Origin: Candidatus Lambdaproteobacteria bacterium RIFOXYD2_FULL_56_26
Lineage (GTDB): Bacteria; SAR324; XYD2-FULL-50-16
DNA length: 34,347 nt
Assembly (NCBI GenBank): GCA_001783715.1
Contig: MFNF01000024.1
Coordinates: 1 to 34,347 of the forward strand
Direction of reading: 5' to 3'
The notes under the pieces are model-generated. The model was not told the origin of the DNA. It ran no database searches and saw nothing but the letters and a program-made list of their open reading frames with translations. The translations under genes were made by a program, and so were the position numbers. Each line of letters starts with the position of its first letter. Position 1 is the stretch's first letter. Positions 25,301 to 33,822 of the stretch are shown one piece after another.

Positions 25301-25531
25301 CTACAGCCCCTTGTGGGTCCCGTCACAAAAAGGATTGTTTTTGGACTGGTGGCAACCACAGAGGTAGGCTTTTTTGTCTTCGGTAAAGTCCACTTTCTTG
25401 GGAGCAGCACCGGCAATCGCCTTGTGGGAGCCGTCACAATGGGGGGCATTTTTGCTCTGCCCACATTGGCAAAGGTACAAGGATTGACCGGCCTTGACTT
25501 CAACGGCGTAAGGGGCTTTTTGGTGAGACAT
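25301..25531 (-). CDS. Double CDGSH iron-sulfur domain protein
   Basis: The 76-residue product has two CDGSH [2Fe-2S] motifs. The first has ligands C21, C23, C32 and H36 (CQCGQSKNAPHCDGSH). The second has C58, C60, C69 and H73 (CGCHQSKNNPFCDGTH). The three-Cys one-His ligation is the mitoNEET type, and tandem prokaryotic forms exist with unclear roles in redox or cluster transfer. I chose the ATG at 25531 because upstream residues of the longer frame are Pro-rich and not part of the family. It is divergent from the LysR gene. Confidence 0.9.
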   Translation of the reverse strand: MSHQKAPYAVEVKAGQSLYLCQCGQSKNAPHCDGSHKAIAGAAPKKVDFTEDKKAYLCGCHQSKNNPFCDGTHKGL

Positions 25532-25696
25532 CTGGGGTCCTGGATCGGGTGGATGGAATGGGGCGGGTGCCCTCTTTGCCCCAGCCCACAAGGGCTGGAA
25601 TCTCAAGACCCAAGGTAGGGGCTTTTTCCTGCTTGAAAAAGAGGACGAAACTAGAAAGGATTGTTCAACATATGGAACAATCTCCCCGGACTACCG

Positions 25697-26584
25697 ATGG
25701 ATCTCAATCTTCTGAATACCTTTTTGAAGGTCGCCGAACTGGGCAGCTTTACCAAGGCCGCCGCCTACCTGCGACAGCCCAAGTCCCGAGTCAGCCGGGC
25801 GATCAGCCGTCTGGAGGAAGAGCTCCACACCGAGCTGATCAAACGAAGCACCCGCAAGCTGCAACTGACCCCCGCCGGTTGTAGGCTCTTCCAGAACACC
25901 AGGCCCCTGATCGACCAGCTCAACCAAGAGGCCCAAACCTTGGCTGCCAGCGCCCAGGACCTTTCAGGCAAGGTCCGGTTCTCCGCCCCCGAGGACATCG
26001 CCAGCCTTTTGTTTGGCGTTTTGTTGGCTGAATTCATGGAAACCTATCCCCAGATCGATTTGGAATTGGTCTTGAGCGCCCAATACTTGGACCCGGTCGG
26101 GGAGCGGCTGGACTTTGCGCTTCGGGTCGGCAACCTCAAGGACAGCTCGCTCAAACAGGTGCGGGTAGGGCAGATTCGGCTGGTCCTAGCGGCGAGCCCT
26201 TCTTACCTGAAAACCTTTGGCCAGCCCACCGACTTGGCAGCCCTGACCAGCCACAAAATTTTGGCCTTTTTACCCAACCACCAGCCCCAAGGCGGTGAAC
26301 CAGCCCCCTATGAACTGCTCAACCAAACACTGGCTCCTCTTTTGGTTTGCAACAGTTTTGGGTTGTTGATGGAGTTGCTGTTGAGGGACAAAGGGATCGC
26401 CCTTTTGCCCGACTATTATTGCCGGTCCGAGATGTTCAAGGGCCGGTTGGTGCGGCTTCTGCCGGACCTCGACTTTGGGGGACGGAACCTGCAAATCCTC
26501 TACCCTCCCGCCAAAGTGCTGTCCCCCAGGACTCGGGTTTGTCTGGACTTTTTTGCCTCCCGACTTTCGCCGTTTTTTGCCTGA
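25697..26584 (+). CDS. LysR-family transcriptional regulator
   Basis: The 295-residue product has the N-terminal winged helix (MDLNLLNTFLKVAELGSFTKAAAYL, then SRVSRAISRLEEEL) and a C-terminal periplasmic-binding-like sensor domain (from about residue 90). I start at the ATG at 25697 because the family begins MDLNLLNTF. A TTG at 25661 preceded by AAGGA would add 12 residues and cannot be excluded. Divergent orientation to the CDGSH gene, with 165 bases between, is the usual LysR layout and makes that gene the first candidate target. Confidence 0.92.
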   Translation: MDLNLLNTFLKVAELGSFTKAAAYLRQPKSRVSRAISRLEEELHTELIKRSTRKLQLTPAGCRLFQNTRPLIDQLNQEAQTLAASAQDLSGKVRFSAPEDIASLLFGVLLAEFMETYPQIDLELVLSAQYLDPVGERLDFALRVGNLKDSSLKQVRVGQIRLVLAASPSYLKTFGQPTDLAALTSHKILAFLPNHQPQGGEPAPYELLNQTLAPLLVCNSFGLLMELLLRDKGIALLPDYYCRSEMFKGRLVRLLPDLDFGGRNLQILYPPAKVLSPRTRVCLDFFASRLSPFFA

Positions 26585-26667
26585 AGGGCAGGTTCATTTT
26601 TTGCTTCTTTTCCCTCTAGGCTCTTTTTTCTTTTCCCCCAGCGGTTTGCTTTCCGCTCTAGGTTGCC

Positions 26668-26692
26668 GGGATTGCTGTTTCCAGCAATTCCC
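26668..26692 (+). terminator. Hairpin after the LysR gene (possible terminator)
   Basis: GGGATTGCTG pairs with CAGCAATTCCC with one bulge. T-rich DNA follows, including a run of eight or more T near 26708-26715, although 16 bases separate it from the stem. A second small hairpin, AGCGG/CCGCT, lies just upstream at about 26640-26657. Termination is likely but not certain. Confidence 0.4.
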
Positions 26693-26717
26693 AAAAGTTT
26701 CCCTCCCTTTTTTTTCT

Positions 26718-26733
26718 TGGTACAATCCTGGCA
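26718..26733 (+). promoter_or_regulatory. Sigma-54-like (-24/-12) promoter before the DUF1566 lipoprotein
   Basis: TGGTAC at 26718-26723, then ATCC with A as R position, then TGGCA at 26729-26733. Fourteen of 16 positions match TGGCAC-R-N4-TTGCW, including the -24 GG and -12 GC at exact spacing. The start would be near 26745, about 52 bases before the ATG at 26797. No activator gene is in the window. Confidence 0.5.
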
Positions 26734-26796
26734 GTAAAACTACCTAGATACTTTACGGTTTGGCCAATTCACGTTTTCCCACTTGGAGGAGGGGGT

Positions 26797-28383
26797 ATGA
26801 GAAAGATCACTCTGATTTTGTTGCTGGTTTCCGCATTGGCAGTGGTGGGTTGCAAAAAGAAGTCCGAGGCCACCAGTGAATCATCCAGCAGCACCACCGT
26901 TGATGCTTCGGCAGACTTGGCAACCACCAAAGCCTTGTCCGCCTTCCAATTCCTAGCGACAAAAAACAGCAACTTTACTGCCGACGTGACCGGAACCAGC
27001 TCCGGGACCGCCATCACCGCCACCATCCCCTTCAAGGCTGACCTGACCAAACTGGTCGCCACTTTCACCACCGACGGCGCTTCGGTCAAGGTGGGGACCG
27101 TTTCCCAGGTCAGCGGGACCACGGAGAACACCTTTGCCTCGCCGGTGGTTTACACGGTGACCGCTGAAGACTCCAGCACCCAGGACTATACGGTGACCGT
27201 CTCCAAGACCGCCGGGAAGACCGACAAGGCCATGAGCAGCTTTAAGTTCCTCAGTGCTTCCAACTCGGGGATTGGTGGGGATTATACCGGGACCATTTCG
27301 GGGGCCACGATCACCATTGCCGGATCGGACACCAACTCCAAGCGGTACATTGCTCGGGGACAGTTGGCCAACCTCAAGGCGACCTTCACCACCACCGGCG
27401 AATCGGTTAAAGTGGGCAGTACGGCTCAAACCAGCGGGACCACAGCCAATGACTTTAGCAGTGGCCAGACCTACCGGATCACTGCCGAGGACGGCAGCAC
27501 CCAGGACTACCAAGTCACCTTGTCCAGCCGTGTGCCGATCCCCGATACCGAACAAACCACCAGCTTTACCGCTACCTTCGGGGAGGACCACGACTATGTC
27601 CAAAATGCCCAGTCCTACACCGACAACGGGAACGGGACCTTGACCGACAACGTGACCGGGCTGGTCTGGCAAAAAGCACCGGATGCCACCACCCGCACCT
27701 GGACCGACTCCAAGACCTACTGTGAAAACAACACCGCCGCTCTGCCAGGCTCCGGTTGGCGTTTGCCGAGCTACCGGGAGTTGTCGGGTTTGCTGAAGAT
27801 GAATACTTCCTCACCTTTGATCAACACCACTGTTTTCTCTGGGGTGCAAAACAACAACTACTGGTCCAGTACCACGGTGGCCACCAATTCGACCAACTCT
27901 TGGTACCTCAACCTCAGCTCCGGGTTGATGGCCGACTTGAGCCAAGGTGGACTCCAGTACGCCCTTTGCGTCCGTGGGACTGCCGAACCTTCCTTGAACA
28001 TGGTCAGCAACGGAGACGGCACGGTGACCGACTTGGTCACTGGGCTGGTTTGGGAGGCTAGGGACGAGTCTGCTGCTGGACTGGTCACCTGGGAGGGGGC
28101 CATCGCTTTTTGTGAAGGGTTGGACTATGCCGGGCAGACCGACTGGCGGTTGCCCAACACCAAGGAACTCTCCACTTTGGTTGATTTAACCAAATCCACG
28201 ACCGTAAAATTCGACCAAACCCTGTTCCCAACGATGAAAAACAGTTTTTATTGGGCTTCCACCACTTCAAACAGCAGCAGCACCTGGGCGTACGACTTCA
28301 GTATGTCGTCAGCCGGTAGCTACACCACCTACACCAAAACCAACGTTGCCGACTATGTTAAATGCGTCCGGGCGGGGGACTGA
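26797..28383 (+). CDS. Lipoprotein with two Ig-like repeats and two DUF1566 (Lcl C-terminal) domains
   Basis: The 528-residue product has a lipoprotein signal peptide with Cys19 (ALAVVGCKKKSE). Two related repeats follow (about residues 45-135 and 140-245), each ending in a TAED-S-STQDY-V-T-S motif that resembles bacterial Ig-like surface repeats. Two DUF1566 copies come next: one starts NGTLTDNVTGLVWQKA and contains WRLPSYREL; the other starts DGTVTDLVTGLVWEAR and contains WRLPNTKEL. The DUF1566 fold is related to formylglycine/C-type lectin folds and is common in surface lipoproteins. The function is unknown. AGGAGG precedes the ATG. Confidence 0.85.
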   Translation: MRKITLILLLVSALAVVGCKKKSEATSESSSSTTVDASADLATTKALSAFQFLATKNSNFTADVTGTSSGTAITATIPFKADLTKLVATFTTDGASVKVGTVSQVSGTTENTFASPVVYTVTAEDSSTQDYTVTVSKTAGKTDKAMSSFKFLSASNSGIGGDYTGTISGATITIAGSDTNSKRYIARGQLANLKATFTTTGESVKVGSTAQTSGTTANDFSSGQTYRITAEDGSTQDYQVTLSSRVPIPDTEQTTSFTATFGEDHDYVQNAQSYTDNGNGTLTDNVTGLVWQKAPDATTRTWTDSKTYCENNTAALPGSGWRLPSYRELSGLLKMNTSSPLINTTVFSGVQNNNYWSSTTVATNSTNSWYLNLSSGLMADLSQGGLQYALCVRGTAEPSLNMVSNGDGTVTDLVTGLVWEARDESAAGLVTWEGAIAFCEGLDYAGQTDWRLPNTKELSTLVDLTKSTTVKFDQTLFPTMKNSFYWASTTSNSSSTWAYDFSMSSAGSYTTYTKTNVADYVKCVRAGD

Positions 28384-28398
28384 CTTAGAGATTTTCTG

Positions 28399-28429
28399 AC
28401 TGGTAGCTCCTTTGGAGTGGCCGGTTTTT
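28399..28429 (+). terminator. Intrinsic terminator after the DUF1566 lipoprotein
   Basis: ACTGG and CTCC pair with GGAG and CCGGT around a TTT loop, with an internal bulge. TTTTT follows. It begins 16 bases after the stop codon. Confidence 0.75.
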
Positions 28430-28439
28430 CATTCAACCC

Positions 28440-28480
28440 AAGGCGGTTTGGACCTGTTGCCCAGGCCGCCTTTCTTTTTC
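28440..28480 (+). terminator. Second hairpin with T-rich tail, tandem terminator
   Basis: AAGGCGG (28440-28446) pairs with CCGCCTT (about 28466-28472), with an inner CCTG/CAGG stem. TTTCTTTTTC overlaps and follows the stem. Placed directly after the first terminator, it gives two-step insulation of the two lipoprotein genes. Confidence 0.6.
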
Positions 28481-28570
28481 TTGCCCCAGAGAACCCAATG
28501 GGATACAACCGCATAGGCTTGTGTTGACGTGAGGGTCGGAAGGGGTGTTACGAATTAACCTGGAGAAAAG

Positions 28571-30559
28571 ATGAAGGTGATCAGATACGGGCTTCCTTTG
28601 GCCTTGCTGGTGGTTTTGGCCTTTGGAGGCTGCAAAAAGAAGTCTGAAAGCTCCGTTTCCTCCGGCACCACCACAACGACCGTTTCCGTTTCTTCGGTCA
28701 GTCCGGCAGAAGGGGCAGCCAGCGTGGCGATTACCACCAGTCTGGTGGTCACGTTCAGCGAAAAAATGGCCGCCAGCACCGTCACCGTAAGCGCGGACAC
28801 AACCTGTACCGGCAGCGTCCAACTCTCGGCCAACGACTTTTCCAGCTGCATCGCCCTGGGTGACCCCACCGCCGACAGCACCGGGGCGATTTTTACCACC
28901 ACCCCCAAAACCAGTTTGGCCAACGGCACCACCTACAAGCTGAAGGTGACCACCGCCACCACCAATGAGGCCGGGGCGGCCTTGTCGAGCGAGTACAGCT
29001 CAACCCAAGGCTTTATCACGGTTTCGGCCACCACCGCCGTGGCCGACACCACCGCCCCCGCCTCCCCGAGCATCACTATCAACAGCGGGGCCAGTTTGAC
29101 CGACAGCACTGCGGTGAGCCTGGTCTTGAGCGCTACCGATGCAGTAGGAGTGACCAAAACTTACGTTTCCAACAGCAACAGCACTCCGGCCGCCTCCAAT
29201 TCCGGGTGGACCTCGGTAACCTCTGCGACCAGCCTTGCCTCCACCGCCTCTTATACTTTGACTGGCACCGCAGGCTCTCAGACCCTGTACGCTTGGTTCC
29301 AGGATGCGGCGGGGAACGTGAGTGCCGCTGCCTCCGCTTCGATCACCCTGGTTTTGTGGCCAGGGACGGCGCAGTTTGGGACCTCGTTGGACGATGCCGC
29401 TTTTGCCGGGGCCATATCGGCCAGCAACAAACTCTACCTCACCGGCTACACGGCAGGTGGCTTGAGCGGCACCAGTGCAGGGGGCAACGACATTGTCTCC
29501 CGCCAGTATGACCTCAACGGGGCCACCGGATGGACCGCCCAGGTCGGGAGTGCGGCTTCGGATATCGCCTATGGGTTGGCGCTGGACAGCAGCGAAAACG
29601 TTTATGTCGCCGGTCAATCCATGGGCGCTTACGACGGCGGAACGCTGGTCGGCTCTTCGGACATTGTGCTGACCAAGTACAACAGCTCAGGGACCAAGCA
29701 ATGGTCCTTGGAGTACGGAACCGTCAACGGCGACCAAGCCCAGGCGGTTGCCGCCGACAGCGCCGGGAACTCCTACCTGACCGGTTTCACCAGAGGCGGC
29801 CTGGACGGCAATACCCTAACGGGGATCTACGACTTCTTCTTGAGCAAGGTTGGCCCCACCGGGACCTTACAATGGACCAAGCAAATCGGTTCTACCGGGG
29901 GGATCGGCTACTCCGGTCGAGGGGTGGCGGTGGACAGCGCCGGAAACATCATCGCCGTGGGCTACGCCGACAAGTCTTTTGACGGAAACAGCATCGTGGG
30001 CACTTCCGATTCCATCGTGATTTACAAATGCGACAGCTCCAACACCAAGATCTGGTCCAAACAAATCAGTTCGGCCAGCATTGAAGAGGCCTACGGAGTG
30101 GCCGTGAACGGGACCACGATTTACGTGGTCGGTTATTCAGCGGGCACCATCGGCGGAACCCAGGCCGGGGCCGGGGACCTGTTCTTGGGCAGTTATGATG
30201 CCAACGGCAACCAGAATTGGACCACCCAGTTGGGCACTTCGGGCCAAGAGTATGGTCTTGGGGTAACGGTGGACAAAAGCGGAAATGTGTACGTCACGGG
30301 AAAAACCGCCGGAGCCTTTACGGGGACCAATGCCGGAGGGACGGATATCTTTGTGGCCAAGTACGACAGTGCCGGGAACAAGCAATGGGTCAGCCAGATC
30401 GGTACTGCGGGCAACGACTTTGGCCAATCGGTGACCACCGACTCTTTGGGCAATGTTTATGTGATCGGTTATGCCGCCGCTTCCTTGGACGGCAAAACCT
30501 ACCAAGGAGGGTTTGACATGGTAGTCCTCAAGTACAGCGCTTCGGGGGTGTTGCAATAA
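28571..30559 (+). CDS. Lipoprotein with Big_5-like domain and SBBP beta-propeller repeats
   Basis: The 662-residue product has a lipoprotein signal peptide with Cys21 (VVLAFGGCKKKSE). A Big_5-type Ig-like domain follows (about residues 40-150, SPAEGAASVAITTSLVVTFSEKM). A second Ig-like stretch starts DTTAPASPSITINSGA. From about residue 265 a series of six or more repeats of about 60 residues carries DSAGNVYVTG- and GTDIFVAKYDSAG-like cores, the SBBP beta-propeller repeat. It is probably exported to the outer membrane or surface. The function is unknown. GGAGAAAAG precedes the ATG. A weak TTGACG box lies at 28524. Confidence 0.85.
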   Translation: MKVIRYGLPLALLVVLAFGGCKKKSESSVSSGTTTTTVSVSSVSPAEGAASVAITTSLVVTFSEKMAASTVTVSADTTCTGSVQLSANDFSSCIALGDPTADSTGAIFTTTPKTSLANGTTYKLKVTTATTNEAGAALSSEYSSTQGFITVSATTAVADTTAPASPSITINSGASLTDSTAVSLVLSATDAVGVTKTYVSNSNSTPAASNSGWTSVTSATSLASTASYTLTGTAGSQTLYAWFQDAAGNVSAAASASITLVLWPGTAQFGTSLDDAAFAGAISASNKLYLTGYTAGGLSGTSAGGNDIVSRQYDLNGATGWTAQVGSAASDIAYGLALDSSENVYVAGQSMGAYDGGTLVGSSDIVLTKYNSSGTKQWSLEYGTVNGDQAQAVAADSAGNSYLTGFTRGGLDGNTLTGIYDFFLSKVGPTGTLQWTKQIGSTGGIGYSGRGVAVDSAGNIIAVGYADKSFDGNSIVGTSDSIVIYKCDSSNTKIWSKQISSASIEEAYGVAVNGTTIYVVGYSAGTIGGTQAGAGDLFLGSYDANGNQNWTTQLGTSGQEYGLGVTVDKSGNVYVTGKTAGAFTGTNAGGTDIFVAKYDSAGNKQWVSQIGTAGNDFGQSVTTDSLGNVYVIGYAAASLDGKTYQGGFDMVVLKYSASGVLQ

Positions 30560-30606
30560 TTTTGCACTCCCACCCTTGGGCGGGTTCCAGCGCTGCCCAA
30601 GGACGC

Positions 30607-30648
30607 AAAAAAAAGGGCCTTCAGATTCAACCTGAAGGCCCTTTTTTT
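30607..30648. terminator. Bidirectional terminator between lipoprotein and tRNA-Ser
   Basis: AAGGGCCTTCAG (from 30613) pairs with CTGAAGGCCCTT around ATTCAAC. It is flanked by an A-run at 30607-30614 and a T-run at 30642-30648. It can end both the plus-strand lipoprotein transcript and the minus-strand tRNA-Ser. Confidence 0.88.
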
Positions 30649-30653
30649 GTTTC

Positions 30654-30741
30654 TGGAAGAGGGTGGGGGATTCGAACCCCCGGAGCTGTTACACTCGACG
30701 GTTTTCGAAACCGTTACTTTCAACCACTCAGCCAACCCTCC
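30654..30741 (-). tRNA. tRNA-Ser (anticodon CGA), unusual acceptor end
   Basis: The anticodon loop TTCGAAA between ACGGT and ACCGT gives CGA (codon UCG). The long variable arm and GTTCGAAT T-loop are normal. The acceptor GGAGGGT pairs with ACCCTCT, so position 1-72 is G-U rather than G-C. The discriminator before CCA is U instead of the near-universal G73 of tRNA-Ser. It could still be charged because SerRS mainly reads the long arm. Confidence 0.9.
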
Positions 30742-30818
30742 CCAAGAATCCCGATTTCTCCTTTTACCCCTAGGTCTAGGCAGGGTGAGTCGGTAAGCTC
30801 CACCTGCGAGGCAATCCT

Positions 30819-30912
30819 AGAAACCGAGCTGCAATTTAGCTGGGTTTCTGCTTGCCGTCAATCGGGGGATTGGGGCAAACAGCTGCCTGCCCCTTAACTC
30901 CGGTCAAGGAGT
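30819..30912. other. Cluster of three hairpins in the tRNA-Ser/cupin gap
   Basis: AGAAACC...AGCT (30819-30830) pairs with AGCT...GGTTTCT (30838-30849), with one mismatch. GGGGCA (30872-30877) pairs with TGCCCC (30888-30893). CTCC (30899-30902) pairs with GGAG (30909-30912). None has a strong T-run on either strand. They lie after the stop of the minus-strand cupin gene. They could be a 3' UTR structure or a small RNA. Confidence 0.3.
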
Positions 30913-30916
30913 CCCC

Positions 30917-31402
30917 TTATTCTTCCCCGTCATAATACCCACAAGCGCCGTCCTTTTTGTGCACCTGCCAAAGGCTCCCGGCACTGGGCGGTAGGCCGGG
31001 GACCATCCCCGCAAAAACCCCTACCTTGTTGGAATCCGGGTATTCTACAATCTCGTTTGGGGTGAAGGTGGAAAAGGCGAGGTATTTAAACACTTGGTCC
31101 GACTGGTTGGCCAACTGGTGGGCAAAGGCCTTGCCTGCCGGTAGGGGTACATAGTCCCCCTGGACCAAGGTGAGCCGCTCCTCCCCCAACCGCAAGGTGC
31201 CTTCCCCTTCGAGCACTAAAATCGCTTCTTCCGCAGCATGGTGGAAATGAAAGGGAAAGGACTTTTTCCCTGGGGCCAATTCGTAATAGGAACAGCCCAA
31301 CTGCTGGGCCGCCGTGCCTTGGGTCAAGGAGCCACGGGTAAAACCAAAGTTTCCCTGTTCCCGGTGGTTTAGTTCCAATTGGTGAAGGTTGGTTTTTTTC
31401 AT
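30917..31402 (-). CDS. Cupin-domain protein
   Basis: The 161-residue product has a single cupin_2 beta-barrel. Motif 1 is represented by FPFHFHHAAEEAILVLEGEG (residues 49-68, with His and Glu as likely metal ligands) and motif 2 by DYVPLPAGKAFAHQLANQ. No signal peptide is present. Such proteins bind a metal and a small molecule, often a sugar or dioxygen substrate. I cannot name the substrate. It follows the PhnA-like gene on the same strand by 23 bases and may be co-transcribed with it. Confidence 0.85.
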   Translation of the reverse strand: MKKTNLHQLELNHREQGNFGFTRGSLTQGTAAQQLGCSYYELAPGKKSFPFHFHHAAEEAILVLEGEGTLRLGEERLTLVQGDYVPLPAGKAFAHQLANQSDQVFKYLAFSTFTPNEIVEYPDSNKVGVFAGMVPGLPPSAGSLWQVHKKDGACGYYDGEE

Positions 31403-31665: not shown

Positions 31666-32136
31666 TTATTTCGGCTCAAACCGATGGAGGTTTAATGTTG
31701 CCAGTTCTTGTAACGCTTGGTTTTGTTGTACCCATTCCAGATGGCCAACAAACTTGACCGGCAACAGATATTTGGTCTGACATTCCAGGGTGAGGCGGGC
31801 AAAATTCACTGCCCCCAGCTGGGCTGGGACCAAAACCGAGACATCCGGGATGTGAAAGCCCCCCTCAGGTCGTGGGAACAAAAACTTCACCTCATGCTCT
31901 CCTTGGCGCACCGGTAGGTAGGTAAAGCTCCTACTTTCCAAGAGCACGATATACCGGTCATCCACCAAAAGGTTAAAATCAACAGCCGAACCACAAAATT
32001 CGCTGGGCCGATAAACATACAGGAGCGCTTGGCCTGCGGGCGGGGTTTCGAGCCCGGCGAACCGGGGGCCGCTGGCCGAACAGGAGGCCAGGAGAAACCC
32101 CAGGAGCAGCAGCCGAACCAACTCAAATCTTTTCAT
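31666..32136 (-). CDS. DUF2846 family lipoprotein
   Basis: The 156-residue product starts at the ATG at 32136 with a lipoprotein signal peptide and lipobox LASC (Cys19). The mature part (GQALLYVYRPSEFCGSAVDFNLLVDD, then FTYLPVRQGEHEVKF) matches DUF2846, a family of envelope lipoproteins of unknown function. A longer frame from 32325 has no signal peptide at its start. A good promoter lies upstream at 32240-32268. It is probably the first gene of a lipoprotein-PhnA-cupin unit. Confidence 0.82.
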   Translation of the reverse strand: MKRFELVRLLLLGFLLASCSASGPRFAGLETPPAGQALLYVYRPSEFCGSAVDFNLLVDDRYIVLLESRSFTYLPVRQGEHEVKFLFPRPEGGFHIPDVSVLVPAQLGAVNFARLTLECQTKYLLPVKFVGHLEWVQQNQALQELATLNLHRFEPK

Positions 32137-32239
32137 TTTTTGGGCTCCAGAACGCTGGCAGGCAAGGCAGTTTTTGTAAACCCAGGGGCCTTCCCCAGCG
32201 CTCCCAAAGGGGCAGGGACTCCAAGGAATATTTTTTAGG

Positions 32240-32268
32240 AATGTAAATCCCGCCGAGCGGCGAGGCAA
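32240..32268 (-). promoter_or_regulatory. Promoter of the DUF2846 lipoprotein with a palindrome in the spacer
   Basis: On the minus strand: TTGCCT (32268-32263), 17 bases, TACATT (32245-32240). The spacer contains the inverted repeat CGCCG-N2-CGGCG (32251-32262) directly next to the -35 box. A repressor bound there would block RNA polymerase. The start would be near 32233, giving a leader of about 97 bases. Confidence 0.45.
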
Positions 32269-32410
32269 GGAAAAAAGGAGTTCGGTTGCCGGGCCGGTTC
32301 GTTTACCTTGACCTGCAACCCCCAAAAGGGGCCAAATCCCTCAATTGCCTCGGGACAAGACCTGATAATGAGCCCAAGAATCTGGATAAGAAGGTATCAT
32401 CCTGATATTC

Positions 32411-32625: not shown

Positions 32626-33822
32626 CTATAGCATTTGCTCTGCCTTGATAAATCGATAGATTTCTTCCGCTACAATTTTATTTTCAGAGTCAGGAAGATG
32701 CACTACGTCCAGAAAAATGGACTCATCTTGAACAAAATCAAGCAGTGAAAGGTATCGCCCTGAAGCATGTTGTTGGCGATCCCATTTTTCAAACCTATCT
32801 TCTACCGAGTAATAATAAAACTCGTGCATATCGCACCTTGCGCTAATGGCTAACTCTTTTTTACAAGTCTCTTTTTGGGCTCTTTGTTTGTTTTTTGCCG
32901 GCTGCAAAACACCAAGAAACTTGATGTTATACGCATGTGCAATCTTTGCCATTTTTTCAACATTGGATAAATAAAAATCCCTGACCTGAACAATTTCTTC
33001 TGCCGGCGTGCTGGCATATTTTGGATTTGGGTGCTCAAGATCATCCAGCGGTAATTTCCGTGGATTATGAACGGCGCTCCAATACAAACCAGGCCATCCT
33101 ATTACAGGGACTGCAGAGGTATAATTATCGAGATCATTATATCCATCATAAGCTACCAGCAGGTCAATATTCATGTCTAATAATTCTTCAACAAAAACTG
33201 CGAGTTCTTGCTTGGAAATGTAACCAACATGGCTTGCATTAATGAATTCGACTTTTTTCCCATCTTTGTTCATTATCTCAGAAAGATAACCTATTATGGT
33301 TGTTTCGTTTTCACAGCCTGAATGACCAGCGGACCCACTAACCATCGCTATTCGGATGGTACCGTTCACTTTCGGGCCGATATTGTCTGACCGAAAGCCA
33401 TGAGAATCTGTTTTAATGATCGTTTTTATATCTTTTTGTTTTTCATGCTCACATTTACCTTCATAAATCTGTTGTGGCGCATACCTGTATCCAGAATAAG
33501 GGTCCAGTACACTCACCAGAGCGGCAACCTTTTTATGTGCTTGCTCTTGATTTAACATTGTGGCCTGAAATATTTTGCCCGTCTTTGAAGGCTCAATGGA
33601 TTGACTTAGAGATACACGATCCGAACGATCAATCCACATTTGGGTCAGCGCATTAACCGTTTGCCCCACGTAAGGCCAATCAGTAAGGCGCTTCATTTTT
33701 CGCAACAGGACATTCTCACCTTGTGGATCAACAGCAAAGATCAACAAGGGAACGGCAAAAAACGAGGCAACCATTATGCAGGTGGCAACAAGGATTTTCT
33801 TTTTATGGATGTATCGGTTCAA
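32626..33822 (-). CDS. SGNH-fold protein, probable polysaccharide O-acylation partner
   Basis: The 398-residue product has an N-terminal membrane anchor or signal (ILVATCIMVASFFAVPLLIFA, about residues 10-30). SGNH-hydrolase blocks follow: a degenerate block I VSGSAGHSG (nucleophile candidate Ser162 or Ser164), a block III-like DGYNDL (226-231), and the C-terminal DVVH (372-375) for the Asp/His pair. The start is TTG at 33822, overlapping the MBOAT stop by four bases. Such pairs transfer acyl groups to exported glycans, as AlgJ/AlgX do with AlgI. The base composition is AT-rich, unlike the rest of the window. Confidence 0.8.
   Translation of the reverse strand: MNRYIHKKKILVATCIMVASFFAVPLLIFAVDPQGENVLLRKMKRLTDWPYVGQTVNALTQMWIDRSDRVSLSQSIEPSKTGKIFQATMLNQEQAHKKVAALVSVLDPYSGYRYAPQQIYEGKCEHEKQKDIKTIIKTDSHGFRSDNIGPKVNGTIRIAMVSGSAGHSGCENETTIIGYLSEIMNKDGKKVEFINASHVGYISKQELAVFVEELLDMNIDLLVAYDGYNDLDNYTSAVPVIGWPGLYWSAVHNPRKLPLDDLEHPNPKYASTPAEEIVQVRDFYLSNVEKMAKIAHAYNIKFLGVLQPAKNKQRAQKETCKKELAISARCDMHEFYYYSVEDRFEKWDRQQHASGRYLSLLDFVQDESIFLDVVHLPDSENKIVAEEIYRFIKAEQML

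Follow-up and report, generated by a model that had tools for sequence, protein, structure and literature searches.

Two adjacent genes on contig MFNF01000024.1 of Candidatus Lambdaproteobacteria bacterium RIFOXYD2_FULL_56_26 (GenBank assembly GCA_001783715.1) encode large predicted lipoproteins that begin with the same tether, CKKKSE, and end in different domains. Is this tether a common sorting signal, perhaps for surface export, as the original prediction for this DNA proposed, or did the two proteins come by it in another way? The window analysed here is the whole stretch of 34,347 nucleotides, in which the two open reading frames (ORFs), ORF A and ORF B, stand in tandem on the plus strand between positions 26797 and 30559. 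Our preferred answer, which we consider probable, is that both are modular envelope lipoproteins whose tether was inherited, that the head of ORF A is a fixed relative of the targets of a diversity-generating retroelement (DGR) found elsewhere in the same genome, and that the head of ORF B is a binding propeller. The tether itself is ordinary, and it is the DGR kinship of ORF A that gives the locus its value.

Two predicted lipoproteins with one tether

The two genes and their parts, all on the plus strand, are as follows (aa, amino acids; Ig, immunoglobulin).

26797-28383, plus strand: ORF A, predicted lipoprotein of 528 aa, with signal peptide, CKKKSE tether, two Ig-like (DUF5018-like) repeats and two Lcl_C domains
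26851-26868, plus strand: putative lipidated Cys of ORF A with KKKSE at +2 to +6, from sequence and pattern search
26923-27525, plus strand: two Ig-like repeats of ORF A, about aa 43-138 and 145-243, an internal repeat with boundaries set by eye
27634-27975, plus strand: first Lcl_C domain of ORF A (d1), of the subtype of DGR "big" targets, from profile match and tree
28018-28371, plus strand: second Lcl_C domain of ORF A (d2), of the subtype of DGR "small" targets, joined in frame to d1 through a 42-base linker
28571-30559, plus strand: ORF B, predicted lipoprotein of 662 aa, with signal peptide, CKKKSE tether, Big_5, a second Ig-like domain and an SBBP beta-propeller
28631-28648, plus strand: putative lipidated Cys of ORF B with KKKSE at +2 to +6, from sequence and pattern search
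28673-28999, plus strand: Big_5 domain of ORF B, aa 35-143 (E 1e-09), homologous to the N-terminus of a protein on contig 57
29033-29356, plus strand: second domain of ORF B, about aa 155-262, taken as Ig-like by eye and aligned to homologues
29366-30556, plus strand: predicted beta-propeller of ORF B, from SBBP matches, predicted model and fold search

Both N-termini, ...SALAVVG-CKKKSEATSESSSSTT in ORF A and ...LLVVLAFGG-CKKKSESSVSSGTTTTT in ORF B, have the n-region, hydrophobic core and lipobox cysteine by which a bacterial lipoprotein, a substrate of Lgt and LspA, is recognised, followed by KKKSE at +2 to +6 and a Ser/Thr-rich stretch. The lipobox calls come from reading the sequence and from a custom motif script, and on these motifs both proteins are probably lipidated. 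The original prediction had read lipobox, CKKKSE and Ser/Thr-rich linker in both ORFs, and on these points, including lipid anchoring as judged by motif, it holds.

The two repeats of ORF A share 50 identities over a 100-column alignment. Their DUF5018 match (E 0.02, under the Pfam cut-off) lends weak support to the Ig-like label, and we call them Ig-like on the basis of ORF A paralogs, which score as DUF5018-related or Cadherin-like. Two stretches of PF07603 (Lcl_C, formerly DUF1566) make up the C-type-lectin-like head (E 2e-50, 170.4 bits against a cut-off of 34.9). In ORF B, the second domain had no Pfam match, and the propeller contains five stretches of SBBP (PF06739; E 1.8e-34, 117.9 bits against a cut-off of 20.5). 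The earlier description of different heads on similar tethers, Ig-like repeats with two Lcl_C domains in one protein versus Big_5 with an SBBP propeller in the other, is supported. Full-length homology of ORF A and ORF B was considered and rejected, given that BLASTP returned no significant similarity between them.

A diversity-generating retroelement in the same genome

The genome contains 14 Lcl_C matches, one of which is the DGR template itself. Contig 42, outside the window, carries a complete DGR composed of a reverse transcriptase (RT), Avd, a MutS-like protein, a template of 143 bases and two variable repeats. The RT matches PF00078 and has the motifs IGNLTSQ and YMDD, which we take to be typical of DGRs; Avd scores 45.5 bits with PF22296 (Pfam bAvd), over the cut-off of 40, and 41.8 bits with the NCBIfam Avd model, under the cut-off of 80; and the MutS-like protein matches PF01624. 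Variable repeat 1 ends the frame of an 876-aa Ig-stalk lipoprotein with the tether CKQAK, and variable repeat 2 ends a small Lcl_C protein that by eye resembles a secreted one. All mismatches of the two repeats counted against the template are at adenines (21/21 and 19/19; Fisher p 1e-12 and 2e-11, respectively), so that contig 42 has the RT, the Avd and the template and variable repeats with adenine-specific mismatches that define a DGR. MutS-like proteins are known DGR accessories (PMC10053308), DUF1566 is already known as a DGR target (PMC4159848), and in Treponema both lipoprotein targets and leftover targets of lost DGRs are known (PMC4891356).

Two further contigs carry altered versions of this arrangement. 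On contig 61 (L176:12516-12930), a collapsed DGR core lies between a big and a small target with its middle missing, the remnants being 81 bases from where the MutS-like region begins (94%) and 73 bases from where the RT ends (86%), and the variable repeats have adenine mismatches in 19/23 and 22/27 cases. Contig 62 encodes one lipoprotein in which two Lcl_C domains are fused in frame, with 23 of 32 mismatches at adenines in the second domain; the first domain, with its gapped alignment, was excluded from this test. These counts use the contig 42 template, no own template having been found in the stretches read for either contig.

The contig 42 RT (L058:2339-3895, minus strand) bears a MutS domain I at its C-terminus (E 2.6e-07) besides the separate MutS-like gene of the cassette, and a Fic/DOC-family gene with DUF4172 (L058:605-1792, minus strand) lies just downstream of the small target. 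Among relatives, the RT query matched 18 of 39 genomes, the own genome included; many of these rows fall in query residues ~383-507, which belong to the MutS-like part, and among the remainder there may be RTs of other types. In G003, a genome of another genus, contig 39 has two variable-repeat-like Lcl_C tails on the minus strand (L182:2113-2254 and 2681-2819), 85% and 83% identical to the contig 42 template. G003 had no RT match at E 0.001 (three candidates scored), and these tails are either orphan targets or the sign of an assembly gap.

ORF A as a probable fixed relative of DGR targets

The Lcl_C domains of ORF A belong to the two subtypes found in DGR targets. In a tree built from 19 Lcl_C domains, of which 11 come from the own genome and eight from G003 and G005 (C43_a and C43_b of contig 43 were left out), one branch (100/100) separates eight big/d1 from eight small/d2 domains, and d1 of ORF A groups with the big subtype and d2 with the small one. 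The tandem order d1-d2 also occurs in contig 62 and in contig 10 of G005. Given that the two subtypes are shared and stand in the same order, we regard ORF A as kin to DGR targets.

This kinship does not extend to the signs of ongoing diversification. The contig 42 template had no match at E 0.01 in the window, in a search that covered the window and ~0.94 Mb of own sequence. When the tail of ORF A was compared with its own genome, with scores obtained for 40 of 61 candidates, matches below E 1e-4, on contigs 42, 62, 61 and 43, lay only outside the variable parts, and the best match inside them comprised 40 bases of the second part (E 0.007), on contig 43 in another protein, and did not extend. 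Between d1 and the template, mismatches fell on 21 of 41 adenine sites versus 49 of 88 non-adenine sites (p 0.71), that is, without adenine bias, in a test that covers d1, d2 aligning too poorly with the template for it. With neither a template match in these searches nor an adenine bias in d1, ORF A does not show what defines a DGR variable protein, and we think it is probably a fixed, non-varying relative of the DGR targets that may have lost, or never had, a template.

This genome seems to encode the same lectin-headed lipoprotein in a diversifying and in a non-diversifying form. The fate of DGR-made binders after loss of the retroelement can be asked directly in such a genome, namely whether useful variants are kept as fixed receptors. 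If they are, there may be former DGR targets among the "plain" DUF1566 adhesins.

A more specific history is conceivable, which we offer tentatively and consider somewhat less probable than its converse: ORF A could be the end point of the collapse of a DGR cassette, in which the core was deleted, the two flanking targets were fused in frame and the hypervariable heads were frozen. The stages of such a collapse might coexist in this genome, contig 42 being intact, contig 61 having its core deleted and both ends kept, contig 62 being a tandem fusion with adenine bias in its second domain and ORF A being old and fixed, a series that we likewise regard as possible and not as the better bet. If true, two lectin heads that used to be hypervariable would now form a single constitutive surface receptor. 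Alternatively, the tandem Lcl_C arrangement may be older and the DGR core a later insertion, and the tree, in which the branches of ORF A are long, favours neither order.

A proposed modular family and its probable placement in the envelope

That ORF A and ORF B belong to one modular family is probable, and part of the evidence lies outside their own genome. In G005, which belongs to the same family and another genus, a single 672-aa lipoprotein with the tether CGKIDKKPAG combines A-type and B-type parts: its first part matches the signal peptide and first Ig-like repeat of ORF A (42% over 137 aa), and its remainder matches the second domain and propeller of ORF B (38% over 532 aa). Paralogs carry various heads on Ig-type stalks, including Kelch, FG-GAP, fn3, carboxypeptidase-regulatory-like and Lcl_C domains. 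Given the G005 fusion and these varied heads, stalks and heads appear to recombine in this family, whose plan would be that of a lipid-anchored protein with a short polar tether, a stalk of one or two Ig-like domains and an exchangeable head for ligand binding. Such stalk-and-head swaps are natural chimeras for testing what places lipoproteins of this kind on the surface.

Most likely, the Lol system would move ORF A and ORF B to the outer membrane, where their heads would be held off the membrane and bind glycans or proteins. A LolA profile scored over its cut-off in the own genome and a LolC/E-like protein under it, so that outer-membrane transport is possible. The type of head and the DGR-diversified kin suggest that the proteins face outwards, and surface display is plausible. 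Legionella Lcl recognises sulphated glycosaminoglycans (PMC11162425), and Lsa25 of Leptospira, described as "likely to be surface exposed", binds laminin, partly via sugars (PMC3444417).

The most serious competitor on location, though one we think rather unlikely, is that both proteins are periplasmic, in the inner membrane or in the outer membrane facing inwards, and act as scaffold or sensor. Lysine at +3, as in both tethers, is among the residues to which inner-membrane retention has been ascribed in Pseudomonas aeruginosa, with only 5/40 likely inner-membrane lipoproteins behind it, and the retention residues proposed there for +3 and +4 are weak predictors (PMC6469965). Aspartate at +2, which serves Lol avoidance and inner-membrane retention in enterobacteria, is absent from ORF A and ORF B, both of which have lysine at that position, and the Lcl_C proteins whose location has been studied are adhesins associated with the cell surface (Lcl, PMC11162425; Lsa25, PMC3444417). 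Diversification of the same head by a DGR also suggests an exposed binder rather than a periplasmic one. In Legionella, a surface-displayed DGR lipoprotein is reportedly on record. A search for a Slam-type exporter gave no match in the own genome and was uninformative, since no control genome matched either.

The tether as a candidate sorting signal

The identity of the two tethers is more than chance. All five residues at +2 to +6 agree between ORF A and ORF B, compared with a maximum of three in 325 pairs among 26 lipoproteins sampled from 787 kb of the own genome. This sample was taken from 42 rows of the motif script, of which 28 came from random stretches, and two of these (L155) were judged by eye to be integral membrane proteins and removed. 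At the DNA level, a pattern of GCKKK followed by S/T/R/C-type codons has two sites in the 3.08-Mb genome, both in these genes, and none in a reversed control.

The search for lipobox-CKKKS proteins that the original prediction had proposed as a check was run on all GCKK sites of the 3.08-Mb assembly, 38 as compared with 17 in a reversed control, every one of which was read by eye. Only three have a lipobox. Two are those of ORF A and ORF B, and the third belongs to a contig 57 gene with the N-terminus GCKKKGTENTASSSTGTTTS, which shares three of the five residues at +2 to +6. The contig 57 protein, with Big_5 and carboxypeptidase-regulatory-like domains, is a paralog of ORF B (43% identity over ORF B residues 20-184). 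Given that ORF B and this paralog share their N-terminus, the KKKSE tether was more likely inherited with a 5' module than it is a demonstrated sorting code, and the proposal of a common sorting signal is not upheld.

The other large stalk/head paralogs of the own genome have the tethers CKSQS, CKAQE, CKVEN, CKVKD, CKQAK and CKSKD, and also CGGQT, CQTEP and CNNGN. Lysine at +2 is found in 9 of 12 stalk/head paralogs (p 0.0026), or 7 of 10 without ORF A and ORF B (p 0.0069), versus 5 of the 26 sampled lipoproteins, the 12 having been picked by homology to ORF A or ORF B and not randomly; merged by paralog group, the count is three of six groups (p 0.15). Three rows, CGATM (L056), CKDTA (L184) and a CSASGP gene in the window, stand outside both the paralog group and the sample. 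Of 50 homologue loci of ORF A or ORF B that were read, 27 have a lipobox in the longest frame according to the script, 24 of them in other genomes, and among these 24 lipoproteins CKKK occurs in none, CKKS in one and lysine at +2 in four, the remaining 23 of the 50 loci not being resolved. Across the 39 genomes, the GCKKK pattern with an S-like codon has 17 sites outside the own genome versus nine in the reversed control, and two of these 17 are lipoproteins, an M30-like peptidase (L219, G001:C158) and a Peripla_BP_6 protein (L221, G013:C23).

We therefore consider it improbable that CKKKSE is a dedicated cell-surface export signal for lipoproteins in this lineage. The idea draws on the full identity of the two tethers and the partial one with contig 57, on the enrichment of lysine at +2 before paralogs are merged, which is the best remaining support and concerns +2 only, and on MucG of Capnocytophaga, a surface-exposed lipoprotein with KKEVEEE after its cysteine (PMC5080379). 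However, the 38 GCKK sites yielded only three lipoproteins, at least two of them homologous; the DGR-target lipoproteins, which are the best candidates for the surface, read CKQAK, CKVKD and CKSKD; CKKK is missing from all 24 relatives; GCKKK is also present on a periplasmic-binding-type protein; and the lysine excess falls to p 0.15 once paralogs are merged. Moreover, the known Capnocytophaga signal depends on acidic residues, requiring K-(D/E)2 or Q-A-(D/E)2 near the cysteine (PMC5080379), and the CKKKSE of ORF A and ORF B has no acidic pair. As a general signal, CKKKSE was rejected on the evidence of the 38 GCKK sites and of the relatives.

The two heads compared with known proteins

A single-sequence model of the ORF B propeller is all-beta with 29 strands (predicted local distance difference test score, pLDDT, 72; predicted template modelling score, pTM, 0.80). 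Its best match in the Protein Data Bank (PDB) is CylK (7FH6, 7RON), both by sequence (E 1.7e-61) and by Foldseek (E 3.4e-24), and the VIA fit of the model to CylK has a Z of 44.6 over 373 aligned residues at 2.9 Å and 32% identity. The next VIA entry is a designed seven-bladed propeller (Z 34.0), and the strand count and the next-best matches suggest seven blades in ORF B as well. The likeness ends at the active site: in one BLOSUM62 alignment, in which 14 unprinted CylK residues were entered as X, the catalytic Glu374, Asp440 and Tyr473 of CylK correspond to Gln, Ser and Ser. Arg105 is supplied by the N-terminal domain of CylK (PMC8916777), and a Pfam search did not find this domain in ORF B, which has Big_5 in front instead. 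Given that neither the catalytic residues nor the N-terminal domain are kept, ORF B is best read as a binding propeller, and a CylK-type enzyme with alkylation at the propeller, for which closeness to CylK in sequence and fold would speak, is hardly credible with three catalytic residues replaced and Big_5 in the place of the Arg105-bearing domain. The SBBP propeller is also shared with the LipL53 family of Leptospira (NF047494; E 7.4e-55), from which ORF B differs in its score (186.4 versus a cut-off of 400 bits) and in having Big_5 and a second domain in front.

ORF A resembles the DGR variable proteins with a DUF1566/Lcl_C head from the human microbiome and Treponema denticola, which have a C-terminal Lcl_C domain on an Ig-stalk lipoprotein as ORF A does. 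Its direct paralogs in the own genome count among targets of this kind. It differs from them in that no template was found, d1 is without adenine bias and two heads stand in tandem. Remote targets are known from Treponema (PMC4891356), and ORF A shares domain family, subtype order and genome with the targets of the contig 42 DGR. That this DGR still acts on ORF A from a distance is very improbable, given that its template has no hit in the window at E 0.01, that tail matches below E 1e-4 are confined to the non-variable parts and that the d1 mismatches are unbiased. An Lcl_C-type region is shared with Lsa25 of Leptospira (NF047850; E 2.1e-14), although ORF A scores 53.8 bits against a cut-off of 260 and has a stalk and two copies. 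The C-terminal domain of Legionella Lcl (PDB 8Q4E) belongs to the Lcl_C family by name and matches ORF A weakly (E 0.04); Lcl is a collagen-like protein with a trimeric C-terminal domain (PMC11162425), in contrast to the Ig-stalk lipoprotein ORF A. A PDB sequence search with ORF A gave weak matches only (CBP21, E 0.022; 8Q4E, E 0.04; others to 0.8). A single-sequence structure model of the ORF A heads had a mean pLDDT of 33 and was not used.

Several findings weigh against our reading of ORF A and ORF B as modular envelope lipoproteins with an inherited tether, a fixed DGR-related head and a binding propeller. The Lcl_C branches of ORF A are long (1.24 and 1.17 changes per column), and the tree leaves 14 of its 16 inner branches unresolved. 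In an assembly of 68 contigs that is 97% complete, with 40 of 61 candidates scored, a template could lie in a gap, and the adenine test speaks for d1 and not for d2. Descent of the tether is argued from the relation of ORF B to the contig 57 protein and from a loose resemblance of the 5' ends, ORF A and ORF B being without significant BLASTP similarity. Finally, the LolC/E-like protein scores 251 bits where the cut-off is 362, and 13 of 14 control genomes match this model too.

Putative terminators and neighbouring genes

28398-28426, plus strand: putative terminator hairpin 1, followed by a T-run (z -2.67; 6 of 200 shuffles as good)
28440-28472, plus strand: putative terminator hairpin 2, followed by a T-rich tail (z -3.08; 0 of 200 shuffles as good)
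30615-30641, no strand assigned: strong hairpin 3' of ORF B, flanked by an A-run and a T-run (z -6.60)
30654-30741, minus strand: tRNA-Ser, adjoining the hairpin after ORF B

The original prediction had placed two terminators between the genes and concluded that they are independently regulated. Two hairpins are indeed found there, and they are what independent transcription of ORF A and ORF B is argued from. A simple consensus terminator scan of positions 26400-31000 returned seven sites versus 6.8 expected, with none in the gap between the genes, and a consensus promoter scan found no promoter-like site just upstream of either. The hairpin at 30615-30641 is probably a bidirectional terminator that also serves the tRNA-Ser gene on the minus strand.

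A third lipoprotein-like gene of the window (31666-32325, minus strand; LLASCSASGP...) has an ordinary CSAS tether and a weak DUF2846 match under the cut-off, and was overlooked by the lipobox script. Also on the minus strand, positions 32626-33822 encode a 398-aa protein, with a hydrophobic stretch at its N-terminus, which resembles SGNH-type hydrolases by eye, and positions 25301-25606 encode a small protein in which two CDGSH-type iron-sulfur motifs were recognised by eye. Four tRNA genes (Thr, Tyr, Thr, Trp) are clustered at 1355-1918 on the plus strand.

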